Below, piece after piece: positions 42,942-48,013 of a stretch of DNA of 64,000 nt. Made by a program: the position numbers and the translations under genes. The stretch comes from Flavobacteriales bacterium (GTDB lineage Bacteria; Bacteroidota; Bacteroidia; Flavobacteriales_D; Sanyastnellaceae), in NCBI GenBank assembly GCA_027491075.1, contig JAIXWX010000034.1, positions 186,001-250,000 on the forward strand. The letters are read 5' to 3'. The notes under the pieces were generated by a model, which saw nothing but the letters and a program-made list of their open reading frames with translations, had not been told where the DNA came from and did not search any database. Every line of letters begins with the position of its first letter. Position 1 is the stretch's first letter.

Positions 42942-43030
42942 TCAATCTAACATAAGAAGAATTTTACAAATCCAAACAACTTGGAGGGATATTTAAGCGT
43001 CCTTTGTATAACAAGCGAAATGCCAACCCT

Positions 43031-44968
43031 ATGAATTACTCGACTATCCCATTTCCTACTCGATTCATCTTGATTATCTTTTTTCTGTTGAGTGGATTTC
43101 CCTCGAGGATTTTAGCCCAGGAAGAAAGTAATAATTGGTATTTCGGACTCTTCGCCGCAATAAGCTTTTCTACAGATCCTCCAACGGTTCTGAGCACAAG
43201 TCAAATGGCCACCAGCGAAGGCTGTGCTTCAATCAGCGATGAAGATGGAGCCTTGTTATTCTACACGGATGGTTTGACCGTTTTCAATGCCAATCATCAA
43301 GAGATGTTGAATGGCGCAGGGCTACTGGGAGGGGGGTCTTCCTCTCAGTCTGCAATCATCGTTCAAGCTCCTGAAAACAGTAACTTGTACTATGTATTTA
43401 CAGTGATGGAAATGGGAATGGGTGGTTTGTCCTATTCTGTGGTTGACATGAATTTAGACGGAGGTTTAGGTGCCGTTGTCAGCGCATCAAAAAATACACC
43501 GCTCGTTTCTACTACTTCAGAAAAAGTGACCGCAGTTCGCCATGCGAATGGAATCGATATTTGGATCATTACTTCCAGTAACATGACCAATGAGTATTAT
43601 TCCTTTTTACTTACCCCTTCTGGTATGGACTTGAATACTGTAGAAAGTACAGCAGGTTCCACACCCGATGAATGGGGTATTGGTTATTTAAAAGGTTCAT
43701 TTGACGGTTCGCTTTTGGTATCTGCCCACTGTTTAGAGCCAGGAGATAATTTGGATATTCTCTCTTTCAACAATGCGACTGGAGCAGTGTCGGACCTATT
43801 GACATTTTCATTGGATCCTATGACACCCTATGGAATAGAATTTAGCCCAGATCAATCTAAACTATACATCAGTACCATTGATGAATTTCAGACTTTTGGA
43901 CAACTGGTACAATTCGACATTTCTAATTTAGACGCAACCGCTGTGCAAGCGTCGAAAGTCATCTTGGATGAAACAGAGGCGGGGTTAGGTTTCGTGGGAG
44001 CGATTCAATTGGCATCCGATGGGCGAATTTATGTTTCCACAGTGAATGGATTTTTGGGAGCAATTGAGAACCCAAATGAAGCAGGAGTTGCTTGCGGTTA
44101 CAACAATGAGTTTCTAAATATATCCCCAGGTACGAGTACTTTCGGATTGCCCAATTTTTTTCCCAACTTCTCTGTGCCTGTGGTATTGAATGCTACACAG
44201 TTTTGTTTCGGCGTTCCCACACAGTTCACCGTGACAGGGGCGCAAGAAGAGGCGATTGTGCAATGGAACTTTGGAGACATTAACTCTGCAAATAATGCGG
44301 CCGAAGGCCTTAACGTGCAACATCTTTATTCACAAGGAGGCACATTTACTGTTACAGCAACCGTAAGTGTTGGCGATGAAGTTGAAGTTTATGAAATAGT
44401 GGTAGTTATAGATAAACCCGAATTGGAAATAGATGTCCTTCCTGGACTTTCGGGTCTCGCTCCCTTTGAAGCTACTTTTGACTTCAATGCTTCTGGACTC
44501 AATCTTTCTGCAGATTTTCAAGCAGACGATGTGATGGATTATACAGATACGCCTGATTTTGAGAACACCACCTACATATACACGACTCCTGGAATTTACT
44601 TGGCCACGGCTATAGTGGAGCAAAATGGCTGTATAGTTCGAGACTCTATCTTCATAGAAGTGTACACAGAGCCATGGTTGTTTATTCCTAATGTGATTAC
44701 ACCAAATGGCGATGGGAAGAATAATTTGTTTTTTGTAAAGGCTTCTGGAATCAAAGACTTTGAATTGTCAATTTACAATCGTTATGGTATCTTACTCGCA
44801 CAGTTGGATGATGTTGACGATGTTTTCGAACCCATTGATCCATTTGATGGTTGGAGACCCGATGAACCTGGAACAAATGGTGTTTATTACTATCACTACA
44901 AGGGATTAGGATTTGAAGGTCAAGAGCTTGATGGTTCCGGTACGATCACCGTGCTTGGTGGGGAGTAG
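43031..44968 (+). CDS. T9SS type B (gliding-type) sorting-domain surface protein with PKD domain
   Basis: 645 residues from the ATG at 43031 (the frame is open from a TTG at 43004). Signal peptide to about RILAQ (residue 30), a beta-propeller-like region (about 35-380, ASISDEDGALLFYTDG, YGIEFSPDQSKLYIS), a PKD domain (QWNFGDINSANNAAEG), and a C-terminal gliding-motility-type sorting domain (PNVITPNGDGKNNLFFV ... LSIYNRYGILLAQLDD ... GVYYYHYKG). Type B cargo is exported by the T9SS and often needs a PorP/SprF partner, of which two are encoded here. Its 3' end overlaps that of the photolyase gene by 23 bp. Confidence 0.93.
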   Translation: MNYSTIPFPTRFILIIFFLLSGFPSRILAQEESNNWYFGLFAAISFSTDPPTVLSTSQMATSEGCASISDEDGALLFYTDGLTVFNANHQEMLNGAGLLGGGSSSQSAIIVQAPENSNLYYVFTVMEMGMGGLSYSVVDMNLDGGLGAVVSASKNTPLVSTTSEKVTAVRHANGIDIWIITSSNMTNEYYSFLLTPSGMDLNTVESTAGSTPDEWGIGYLKGSFDGSLLVSAHCLEPGDNLDILSFNNATGAVSDLLTFSLDPMTPYGIEFSPDQSKLYISTIDEFQTFGQLVQFDISNLDATAVQASKVILDETEAGLGFVGAIQLASDGRIYVSTVNGFLGAIENPNEAGVACGYNNEFLNISPGTSTFGLPNFFPNFSVPVVLNATQFCFGVPTQFTVTGAQEEAIVQWNFGDINSANNAAEGLNVQHLYSQGGTFTVTATVSVGDEVEVYEIVVVIDKPELEIDVLPGLSGLAPFEATFDFNASGLNLSADFQADDVMDYTDTPDFENTTYIYTTPGIYLATAIVEQNGCIVRDSIFIEVYTEPWLFIPNVITPNGDGKNNLFFVKASGIKDFELSIYNRYGILLAQLDDVDDVFEPIDPFDGWRPDEPGTNGVYYYHYKGLGFEGQELDGSGTITVLGGE

Positions 44969-46427
44969 CAAGACTTTCTAAGTAGGCTTCAGCATTTTGC
45001 CAAATGGCTTCTTTCTTTTCAATTGCCATTTTATCAAAGGTGCGCACCATCATACTGAGTCGTGGATTCTTTAAGAAGAAGGCTCGATGCTTATCAATGA
45101 ACCTCCAGAAAAGAGCATCCCATGTTTCGCACCAGGGACCTTTACTGTAATTGCTCATTTTGAGAATGTAATTGCTTCCACTGATGTATGGTTTGGTGCT
45201 CATAATACCTCCGTCTGCGAATTGAGACATGCCATAAACATTTGGCACCATGACCCAATCATAAGCATCAATGAATAATTCCATAAACCAGCGGTGCACC
45301 TCATCGGGATCGAATTCACACAATACCATAAAGTTTCCAATGACCATCAACCTTTCAATGTGATGGCTATAGGCAGTGTCATGAATTCTGTGGACGGCAT
45401 CATCAATTGGAAAAATACCTGTGGTACCATTCCAAAATGCATCAGGAATAGGACGCGCGTGTTGAAAGAAATTTTTCGTTCTTTCTTCAATCCCTTTATT
45501 AACATACACGGCTCTAATGTACTCTCGCCACCCCAAGACTTGTCGCACAAATCCTTCTAAACTATTGATCGGAATATTGTTTTTCAAGGAAAATTCAATT
45601 GCGCTATCTAGTATATCTTGTGGCGCAATGATTCCCACGTTTAACATGGGCGTGAGAATGGAATGAAATAGGGTACCTTCTCCAGAAACAATGGCGTCTT
45701 GATAGGTTCCGTATGAATGAAAACGATTTTTTAAGAAGTCATTTAGCCATGAAATCGATGAGTCACGATCTATTGGGTAGTGCCATTTATCCAAGTTTCC
45801 ATAATGATCTTTGAAGTGCTTTTCTGTATATTGAATAGCCTCTTCCATATAATGATTTAGATCAACTTTCGGGAGGGATGGAATTTTTACGCCCTTCGGC
45901 ATTTTATTTCTATTTTCTCCGTCAAAGGTCCATTTACTACCCAAAGGCTCACCCATGGAGTCAAGGAGTATGCTATGGCGTTTTCTTTCATCGATATAAA
46001 AGGAAGTAAAAAAGTATTTTTTCTTTTTAGAAAAATAATTTCTCACGTATTCATCGGTGCAAATAAATTGAAGGCTCTCGTTTTTTTGGGAGGTGATATT
46101 GTATTTCTTACAATAACGGACAATGCGTCGCTCTAGGAGGTAGTCGACCGTGTCATAGTAGCAAATTTCTTTTATTTTTTCTTTCTTGAGAAAGTCAAAT
46201 AACATTGAAGTTTTGTTTCGTGGATCGACGGCCTCTATGTATAGCTTATTGGAATGATTTATCCCGTCAAAATACGAGCGCATGGTTGCGCGGTGATAGG
46301 CAATTTTTTGTTTGTGAAATTTATATTGATTGAAAAACAACTCATCTTCAATCATTATCACAATATCAGCGTCGATGCTTTGAAGCGACTGAAACAGTTG
46401 ATGCGGATAAATGAGAAAGGCTTTCAT
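44946..46427 (-). CDS. PhrB-like photolyase/cryptochrome (FeS-BCP clade) with altered Fe-S ligand loop
   Basis: 493 residues of the FeS-BCP/CryB-type family, whose characterised member Agrobacterium PhrB repairs (6-4) photoproducts. Seen: N-terminal Rossmann antenna domain (AFLIYPHQLF), RQVLGWREYIRAVY, WNGTTGIFPIDDAVH, VLCEFDPDEVHRWFMELFIDAYDWV, and NVYGMSQFADGGIMSTKPYISGSNY in the FAD domain. Two of the four Fe-S cysteine positions appear kept (C370, C433), but the usual CxxC-bearing loop is shortened to MSNYSKGPWC. It lies immediately after TIGR03643 and Cry-DASH genes, so it is part of a light-repair operon. Confidence 0.9.
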   Translation of the reverse strand: MKAFLIYPHQLFQSLQSIDADIVIMIEDELFFNQYKFHKQKIAYHRATMRSYFDGINHSNKLYIEAVDPRNKTSMLFDFLKKEKIKEICYYDTVDYLLERRIVRYCKKYNITSQKNESLQFICTDEYVRNYFSKKKKYFFTSFYIDERKRHSILLDSMGEPLGSKWTFDGENRNKMPKGVKIPSLPKVDLNHYMEEAIQYTEKHFKDHYGNLDKWHYPIDRDSSISWLNDFLKNRFHSYGTYQDAIVSGEGTLFHSILTPMLNVGIIAPQDILDSAIEFSLKNNIPINSLEGFVRQVLGWREYIRAVYVNKGIEERTKNFFQHARPIPDAFWNGTTGIFPIDDAVHRIHDTAYSHHIERLMVIGNFMVLCEFDPDEVHRWFMELFIDAYDWVMVPNVYGMSQFADGGIMSTKPYISGSNYILKMSNYSKGPWCETWDALFWRFIDKHRAFFLKNPRLSMMVRTFDKMAIEKKEAIWQNAEAYLESLATPHQAR

Positions 46428-46706
46428 TTATCTTTTCGATATTTTGTTATTTGTAATAGCGCGTTGGCGATTGCATTTATGTCTTCCCACTTCTTCCGAA
46501 CGCAGAGCAGTATGTTTAGTGCTGCGCCCTGTCATGCGCTTTCTCCACATGCGAAAACTGGACGCTTTCATTTCCTTGCGCATCAATTCAATTACTTGCG
46601 ATTCATTGATCCCAAATTGCGCTTCGATGGCTTCAAACGGGGTGCGATCCTCCCAAGCCATTTCGATGATTCTGTCGATGTCTTCTGGACTTAGTTGATT
46701 TTTCAT
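46428..46706 (-). CDS. TIGR03643 family small protein of photolyase operon
   Basis: 92 residues. The opening LSPEDIDRIIEMAWEDRTPFEAIEAQFG and the core KEMKASSFRMWRKRMTGRSTKH match the TIGR03643 family of small basic proteins that recur beside photolyase genes; function unknown. The N-terminal half looks like a helix-turn-helix. It overlaps the Cry-DASH gene by 4 bp at its start, and its stop codon abuts the photolyase ATG, so all three are translated together. Confidence 0.88.
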   Translation of the reverse strand: MKNQLSPEDIDRIIEMAWEDRTPFEAIEAQFGINESQVIELMRKEMKASSFRMWRKRMTGRSTKHTALRSEEVGRHKCNRQRAITNNKISKR

Positions 46707-48013
46707 GTGGTTGTTTTATTGAGCCAGAGGTTTCTGAATGTTCTGTCTCGATCGTAGTCAGAGGCTTGTTTTTGCGTGTTGAATTTTCTATCAGGACGAG
46801 GATCATTGCCTACTCCAGCGATGTATGCCCAGTTTCCCCAGTTACTCGCGGGGTCATAATCAATGAGCATCTTTTCGAAATACGCTGCTCCCCATCTCCA
46901 ATCCATTCCCAGATCATGTACAAAATAGCTGGCAACATTTTGCCGTCCTCTATTGCTCATCCATCCGGTATGCTTGAGTTCGAGCATATTTGCATCCACG
47001 AAGTCATCTCCAGAATAACCGTCGCACCACGCTTCAAATGTGCGCATGTCTCTTCGCCATTTGCGGACTGCTTGTGCATTGAATCCGCTCAACTGAAAAA
47101 GTTTGGATCCCTGCTTAGCAGCAGTGAAGCGGAAGAAATCTCTCCATAGCAGTTCGAAGATCATCCAATAGGTGCTATCGTTTTTGATTTTTTCTTCTTC
47201 AAAATCCAAGATTTCATTGACAATGATTTTTGGACTTAAGGATCCGTTGGCGAGCCAAGGTGAGAATTTGCTGCTATAATTTTTTCCTACTAAACCATTG
47301 CGAGTTTCCTTGTAAGTAACAATGTGTTCTTCTTTCCACACATATTCATTTAAGCGATCAAGACCCGATTGTTCTCCCCCGTGAAAGCGCATTGCTGCGC
47401 GTGTGTCTGAACTTTCTTGCTTTTCAAAGGATGGAAATAAGTCTATTGATTCCACATTAGCGGCTTCTGGAGCATGTATTCTGTCTGGAGCTTTAAGCGG
47501 ACGCAAATAACTGCATTCTCTCTCTACCTTGTTTCTGAATTTAGTGAATACATCGGGCAATTGCTGAAGACTGAAAGGAAGGTCATTCTTTTCAATTAAC
47601 GTAGAGGTCCATTTTTCTTCCCAGTCCTTACCCATGCGATCAAGCTCTCTTTGAAGAAGTAATTCATCGTTGATTTCTTCCGTACATACTTCTTTGGAAT
47701 AGAAAACAGTCGAGATGTCTAACTTCAGCGCCAGCGCCGCGATTTCAAGGGGAGGTAATCCTTGGAGTAGGATCAGTTTTCCTCCCAATTGTGAGATGTT
47801 ATTCGAAAGGTTTTGGATTGATTCAAGTAGGAATTTCTTTCTGAAATCTCCCATCTTTGCAAGACCGCCGTAAGGCGTCGTTTCGTTCCACCTGTGGTCC
47901 CAGCAAAATGCAGTATATACTTCTTTATACTGCTCGCAAGCACTTAATAAGGCATCATTATCTGCAACCCTAAGATCATTGCGAAACCATACCAATGCGC
48001 GTCTGTTCTTCAT
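46703..48013 (-). CDS. DASH-family cryptochrome / photolyase
   Basis: 436 residues. Cry-DASH proteins repair cyclobutane dimers in single-stranded or looped DNA, using FAD and usually an MTHF antenna. Seen: ALVWFRNDLRVADNDAL at the N-terminus, SPWLANGSLSPK, ELLWRDFFRFTAAKQG, NMLELKHTGWMSNRGRQNVASY and the DASH-typical C-terminal GNWAYIAGVGNDPRPDRKFN. First gene of the overlapping trio with TIGR03643 and PhrB-like photolyase. It lies 69 bp after the MerR-type gene on the same strand. Confidence 0.94.
   Translation of the reverse strand: MKNRRALVWFRNDLRVADNDALLSACEQYKEVYTAFCWDHRWNETTPYGGLAKMGDFRKKFLLESIQNLSNNISQLGGKLILLQGLPPLEIAALALKLDISTVFYSKEVCTEEINDELLLQRELDRMGKDWEEKWTSTLIEKNDLPFSLQQLPDVFTKFRNKVERECSYLRPLKAPDRIHAPEAANVESIDLFPSFEKQESSDTRAAMRFHGGEQSGLDRLNEYVWKEEHIVTYKETRNGLVGKNYSSKFSPWLANGSLSPKIIVNEILDFEEEKIKNDSTYWMIFELLWRDFFRFTAAKQGSKLFQLSGFNAQAVRKWRRDMRTFEAWCDGYSGDDFVDANMLELKHTGWMSNRGRQNVASYFVHDLGMDWRWGAAYFEKMLIDYDPASNWGNWAYIAGVGNDPRPDRKFNTQKQASDYDRDRTFRNLWLNKTTT

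Follow-up and report, generated by a model that had tools for sequence, protein, structure and literature searches.

A photolyase of the PhrB family without [4Fe-4S] cluster ligands in a Flavobacteriales genome, and its relatives in Bacteroidota

The photolyase gene, its family and its fold

The window analysed here, a stretch of 64,000 nucleotides from a Flavobacteriales bacterium (GenBank assembly GCA_027491075.1, contig JAIXWX010000034.1, positions 186,001 to 250,000), carries on its reverse strand a gene for a photolyase of the PhrB/DPRP type (P0001; 44946..46427), the product of which retains none of the four cysteines that bind the [4Fe-4S] cluster in PhrB. All features below lie on this strand unless stated otherwise. 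The open reading frame runs uninterrupted through 493 codons (493 amino acids); its position, strand and length were as given in an earlier interpretation made from the letters alone (hereafter the sequence-only reading). The PhrB-like family proposed in that reading was confirmed by a match to the DPRP N-terminal domain of Pfam (PF04244; E 6.4e-49, 167.2 bits against a cut-off of 22.1). A sequence search of the PDB (E up to 0.001) returned eight distinct sequences, all of them (6-4) photolyases or cryptochrome B from Caulobacter, Rhodobacter, Synechococcus, Agrobacterium and Vibrio, and the best match was the (6-4) photolyase of Caulobacter (9hnk, E 1.9e-83).

The AlphaFold2 model of the protein, built from 38 alignment rows, had a mean predicted local distance difference test score (pLDDT) of 87.1 and a predicted template modelling score (pTM) of 0.88. 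The predicted model has the overall fold of Agrobacterium PhrB (4dja, 5kcm), a (6-4) photolyase with a [4Fe-4S] cluster and 6,7-dimethyl-8-ribityllumazine (DMRL): the template modelling score normalised to the query, TM(query), was 0.91, and the identity to 5kcm was 29%. The top eleven fold matches in the PDB were PhrB, RsCryB and proteins of Caulobacter, Vibrio and Synechococcus, with TM(query) of 0.86-0.91, and the next match fell to 0.56. The Caulobacter enzyme 9hnk and SePhrB (8ijy) share this fold, yet both possess all four cysteines.

The gene is under purifying selection and in use. Compared with L002, from a genome of the same genus (G395), the proportion of nonsynonymous differences (pN) was 0.148 and that of synonymous differences (pS) 0.879, the latter being saturated; against L003 the values were 0.201 and 0.826.

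The cluster ligand positions and the shortened loop

With PhrB numbered as in chain 5kcm_A, the four ligand cysteines are C350, C438, C441 and C454. In the alignment, these columns are occupied in the window protein by P340 (45408..45410), S428, a gap and E434, respectively, leaving none of the four ligands that define the FeS-BCP subtype. The protein has five cysteines in total (residues 89, 106, 123, 370 and 433), none of them on a ligand column, so that no set of four equivalents was found elsewhere in the chain. The former Fe-S loop is reduced to 18 residues, M424-W441, reading MSNYSKGPWCETWDALFW (45105..45158). As judged from the alignment with PhrB, the sequence-only reading was right about this loop, for which it gave the same text, noting that the CxxC motif is missing; the segment between the CxxC and the last ligand is indeed gone. 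It was wrong in taking C370 (45318..45320) and C433 (45129..45131) for the first and last ligands, and both were rejected as such, as they lie off all four ligand columns. C370 faces an alanine of PhrB, and C433 faces another alanine, one column before C454; since C454 lies seven residues ahead of W461 in PhrB and C433 lies eight ahead of W441, the C454 column corresponds to E434 rather than to C433. In the predicted model, a helix begins at residue 431, straight after the shortened turn, and pLDDT averages 74 over residues 421-430 and 87 over residues 431-440.

We examined whether the same state recurs in relatives, using a first scored set of 168 rows (the window protein, four PDB chains and 163 loci) and a larger set of 237 rows. 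The homologue rows include the best 80 of at least 567 relatives, and of the 87 plasmid records that had a match, 7 supplied the plasmid rows; the proportions of the two forms within the row set therefore carry no meaning, and only the genome counts given below can be used for that purpose. Before the larger set was scored, we dropped L001 (the window itself), L162, L232 and L233 (duplicates of L145, L002 and L003), L229 (a fragment of 97 amino acids) and L238 (an unrelated stretch of 100 bases), and exact duplicates were left in for L023/L083 (cluster-free) and L140/L228 (Fe-S, both in G390, a contaminated genome).

Among the 237 aligned rows, all four ligands were present in 111 and none in 126, and no row had one to three. 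The C350 column is cysteine in 111/111 Fe-S rows; in the 126 ligand-free rows, which include two class I proteins, one fragment and the truncated L120, it is proline in 122 and leucine in three (L119 and the two class I proteins), the fragment accounting for the last. Hereafter, the cluster-free rows are the 121 with proline at this column, the window protein included and L120 left out; L119 falls outside them as it has no proline there. From the methionine to the tryptophan of the LFW motif, the loop measures 18 residues in 121/121 of these complete rows, and 28 residues in 109 of the 111 Fe-S rows, the other two having 32 and 33. The columns of W432 and W436 are tryptophan throughout (121/121). 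The C370 column, a non-ligand position, is typically cysteine in the cluster-free branch (113/121), and mostly threonine (49) or alanine (42) in the 111 Fe-S rows, while the C433 column holds glutamine in 81 and cysteine in only 19 of the 121. Judged by these alignment columns, the ligand loss is beyond chance, the state being fixed in every complete row of the branch that we examined.

The alignment thus shows all four ligands missing together, a loop that carries three of them in the Fe-S form and is ten residues shorter here, a proline (P340) in place of the first ligand, and two branch-fixed tryptophans, W432 and W436, within the loop. We infer that the changes in the loop and at the proline may allow the C-terminal roof subdomain to fold without metal, the subdomain being closed by the short turn and by aromatic packing instead.

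Cluster-free proteins of this kind are already in print, and the window gene adds a member and a census. Ligand cysteines were absent from 7% of 464 homologues in PMC4619345, cysteine-less homologues were also reported in PMC12082625, and a cluster-free Phr2 of picocyanobacteria was described in PMC9426592. In PMC9178010, the cysteine-less members were set apart as subgroup M, with PromaPL of Prochlorococcus, that is, as prokaryotic 6-4 photolyases without the four cysteines; the window protein agrees with this subgroup in lacking them. Bacteroidetes are not named in the main text of PMC9178010. We found no published description of the Bacteroidota branch, of its fixed loop or of the mutual exclusion with the Fe-S form described below, a weak negative given that most subscription papers and supplements lay outside the search. 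The role of the [4Fe-4S] cluster in prokaryotic (6-4) photolyases is described as an open question in PMC12082625. Removal of the cluster from PhrB by mutation of its cysteines failed, the Cys-to-Ser mutants being insoluble or not expressed (PMC4619345), and a natural cluster-free branch offers a direct comparison. The proline at the first ligand position, together with an 18-residue loop with two tryptophans, provides a pattern for a cluster-free PhrB.

Catalytic residues, antenna pocket and function

The pair H355-H356 (45360..45365) aligns with H365-H366 of PhrB. In the counts below, L120 (truncated), L230 and L231 (class I) and L236 (a fragment) were left out. The H366 column is histidine in all 121 cluster-free and all 110 Fe-S rows, and the columns of L370, M410, Y424, Y430, D179, D254 and W390 are, like that of H366, unchanged in 121/121 cluster-free rows; the H365 column is histidine in 111 and asparagine in 10. 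The aspartates that bind Mg2+ are, in PhrB, presumably those numbered 179 and 254. The window equivalents of His366, Tyr424 and Asp179/Asp254 are H356, Y414, D169 and D244, so that the catalytic, lesion-binding and Mg2+-binding residues expected of a prokaryotic (6-4) photolyase are all present. The roles of H366 (needed for repair), Y424, Y430, W342 and W390 are taken from PMC4619345; the Mg2+-binding pair is D178/D253 in the Caulobacter enzyme (PMC12082625), and the paper on PromaPL that PMC9178010 cites, Ma 2019, also carries it in its title. At PhrB column 437, we found tyrosine in 101/121 cluster-free rows, and PMC4619345 states that homologues without the ligand cysteines have no tyrosine there; perhaps the disagreement arises from a different alignment or set.

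The antenna pocket was compared at 13 of the 21 contact sites counted in PhrB (PMC9178010). E33, K47 and M55 are kept, and ten sites are changed: L8, G9, D10, E37, Y40, V41, G42, H43, I51 and R108 are replaced, in the same order, by Y7, P8, H9, F31, Q34, Y35, K36, F37, H45 and L97. Sites 8-10 were placed via the Agrobacterium homologue L152, as the PhrB fragment used starts at residue 26. P8 and F37 are common to the cluster-free branch and H9 occurs in 110/121 of its rows, while several other antenna sites vary among the Fe-S rows too. With 10 of the 13 sites differing from PhrB, it is probable that the protein binds its antenna otherwise than PhrB binds DMRL, uses a different molecule or has no antenna.

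To sum the comparison, the window protein resembles PhrB in its fold, its DPRP N-terminal domain, the catalytic histidine, the lesion-binding tyrosine and the Mg2+ aspartates, as well as in the presence of both W390 and W342; it differs from PhrB in lacking the cluster ligands, in a loop ten residues shorter, in ten antenna contacts and in a methionine at the site of E403. On the strength of these sequence features and the model, we consider it quite probable that the gene product is a working (6-4) photolyase of the prokaryotic PhrB/DPRP family, without a [4Fe-4S] cluster. Such an enzyme would bind flavin adenine dinucleotide (FAD), photoreduced via W332/W380; Y414 would bind the lesion and D169/D244 the Mg2+, and repair of the (6-4) lesion would proceed by electron transfer from excited FADH- and proton transfer by H356.

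Several observations weigh against this assignment. E403 of PhrB, which lies near the flavin N5, is replaced by methionine in 121/121 cluster-free rows; with this change and the remodelling of the antenna pocket, the function could have shifted. The W342 column is tryptophan, as in the window protein, in only 51 of the cluster-free rows and tyrosine in 70. The Pfam profile FAD_binding_7 scored at the border (26.5 bits, and 27.6 in a second search, against a cut-off of 27), so that the claim in the sequence-only reading of an intact FAD pocket is favoured by the PhrB fold of the model and left unconfirmed by the profile. Finally, activity on cyclobutane pyrimidine dimers (CPD) has been suggested for the cluster-free Phr2 of picocyanobacteria (PMC9426592).

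The last of these points, together with the remodelled antenna pocket and the methionine at the E403 site, would fit a photolyase for another lesion, either the CPD or damage in single-stranded DNA. Nevertheless, H366, Y424, Y430 and the Mg2+ aspartate pair are retained in 121/121 rows, and PMC9178010 places the cluster-free PromaPL among the 6-4 photolyases. In addition, an FAD_binding_7 profile search of the source genome found four members of the photolyase superfamily, namely the window photolyase, the DASH gene upstream of it, and one gene on each of contigs C32 and C6. CPD repair has another likely enzyme here, since the C32 gene, although under every NCBIfam cut-off, is closest in the PDB to class I CPD photolyases (1owl, E 1.1e-88). 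Taken together, we regard a different lesion as unlikely. A cryptochrome-type light sensor without repair activity, forming a light-response unit with the DASH gene and the small-protein gene beside it, would be in keeping with the tight DASH-DUF2805-photolyase run (described below) and with the regulatory roles of the relative RsCryB (PMC9178010), but the lesion-site residues are fixed across the branch, which makes this highly unlikely.

The two explanations that concern the lost ligands have even less to recommend them. The sequence-only reading had left a choice between a cluster-free and a two-cysteine branch, and it is the cluster-free half that stood. That C370 and C433, together with other residues, bind some other metal or a [2Fe-2S] cluster instead of the [4Fe-4S] cluster would agree with the cysteine at the C370 column in 113/121 rows; however, C433 is matched by cysteine in just 19 rows and replaced by glutamine in 81, both columns lie outside the ligand positions, and no row with one to three ligands occurs, so that we grant such a site only a very small chance. 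Decay of the gene, with loss of both cluster and function, is still less credible and has next to no probability in our view: nothing in the window gene itself speaks for it, the one point in its favour being a relative (L120 in genome G353) that stops before the loop, and the frame is open, pN/pS is 0.148/0.879, and the loop length is equal in 121/121 rows. Decay of the window gene was rejected on the open frame and pN/pS.

Distribution of the two forms and their small neighbours

Cluster-free photolyases are common in Bacteroidota. We surveyed 395 genomes of the phylum, of which 137 had a match among the matches listed; classified by the ligand columns, 92 genomes carry the Fe-S form and 39, among them G353 and the genome of the window, the cluster-free form. 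The rest are a third type (G041), a fragment (G338), two class I-like proteins (G301 and G376) and two weak matches left unread (G085 and G219). No genome of the 395 had both forms among the matches listed, a listing that would show a further copy matching at normal strength but would perhaps miss a short fragment; under independence, with kinship ignored, 9.1 such genomes are expected. Within the window's own family, the cluster-free form occurs in G402 and in two genomes of the window's genus, G395 and G396, which show no difference from L002 and L003 in the compared stretches; the Fe-S form occurs in seven genomes (G045, G398-G400 and G403-G405), a fragment only in G401, and no match in G397. 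With both present in one family, the two forms thus substitute for one another from genus to genus.

In a tree of 82 chosen rows, built by a quick method with the ligand and loop columns removed, a single branch (length 1.16; support of 100 in the Shimodaira-Hasegawa approximate likelihood ratio test, SH-aLRT) parts 45 Fe-S rows from 36 cluster-free rows plus L119. When class I and DASH proteins were added as outgroups, the cluster-free rows fell inside the Fe-S rows, which would mean loss of the cluster if the root were trusted; the outgroup branches are about 5 changes per column long and the root is unreliable. With that reservation on the root, the tree would suggest loss of the cluster over its ancestral absence.

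Two rows deserve separate mention. L119 (G041:C19:22400-24150), from the same order as the window, represents a third type, likewise cluster-free but more distant, which has leucine at the C350 column; its loop, KKQGFKTDADGAALFDALFW, also has 18 residues, has no WQxxWD pattern, and L119, a single sequence, adjoins the cluster-free rows on the tree. L120 (G353:C19:54450-56250), from the same phylum, is a cluster-free photolyase gene broken by a stop near residue 425. As for carriage by phages, there were zero matches in 50,697 phage records, and of three stretches on viral contigs that fitted a pattern none was confirmed, in a search that reaches close relatives only.

The photolyase gene stands last in a run of three on the reverse strand. 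The first, a DASH-type cryptochrome/photolyase gene (46703..48013; TIGR02765 crypto_DASH, 519.9 bits against a cut-off of 317.05), overlaps by ATGA with a gene for a DUF2805/TIGR03643 protein of 92 amino acids (46428..46706; PF10985 E 6.4e-38, TIGR03643 E 1.3e-36), the TAA stop of which immediately adjoins the ATG of the photolyase. Among the 395 genomes, DUF2805 was found in 92 of the 133 with a DPRP photolyase versus 21 of the 262 without, kinship being uncorrected (29/39 cluster-free and 62/92 Fe-S genomes).

A second small protein, DUF2256, which is about 50 residues long and has four cysteines, is also linked to these photolyases. With kinship likewise uncorrected and two weak matches (G011 and G082) left uncounted, it occurs in 113/133 genomes with a DPRP photolyase versus 10/262 without, or 30/39 cluster-free and 81/92 Fe-S genomes. 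We also tested the neighbourhoods of 124 loci, 117 of them with at least 300 bases upstream, taking distances from BLAST ends. DUF2256 precedes the photolyase on the same strand, at a distance of no more than about 200 bases, at 57/109 cluster-free and 6/8 Fe-S loci; anywhere in the locus it was found at 68/109 and 7/8, respectively, in all cases on the photolyase strand. This link holds with or without the cluster, and no other observation of this study was less expected. DUF2256 belongs to the TRASH superfamily of metal-binding domains (PMC4047054), and in the accessible part of the literature searched we found neither a link between DUF2256 and photolyases nor a mention of TIGR03643.

The job of DUF2256 cannot be Fe-S assembly alone, because it accompanies the cluster-free form too. 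It is possible, if rather doubtful, that either form can stand in for the other as the same repair enzyme, and that both have DUF2256 (and often DUF2805) as a dedicated small partner, which would aid cofactor loading, folding or access to the lesion. At five loci (L064, L076, L096, L102 and L107), the order is DUF2256, DASH gene, photolyase; as DUF2256 thus precedes the DASH gene in some loci, it might be a partner of the DASH protein or of photolyases in general. Among 14 control genomes, DUF2256 was found in Caulobacter vibrioides and Synechococcus elongatus, a DPRP photolyase in these two and in Haloferax, and DUF2805 in none; given Haloferax, with the photolyase and no DUF2256 match, DUF2256 is not needed everywhere. 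In the window's genus, the DASH-DUF2805-photolyase run includes no DUF2256, and in the window's genome DUF2256 lies on contig C6, some 3 kb away from the fourth gene of the superfamily and on the opposite strand. That unclassified gene (G000:C6; L240:712-2202) encodes 497 amino acids and reaches no NCBIfam cut-off, its best score being 153 bits against 506.

On the other side of the photolyase gene, the forward-strand frame 43004-44968 is convergent with it, the two 3' ends overlapping by 23 bases, and has a weak match to a type B sorting domain of the type IX secretion system (T9SS; 28.9 bits against a cut-off of 35).

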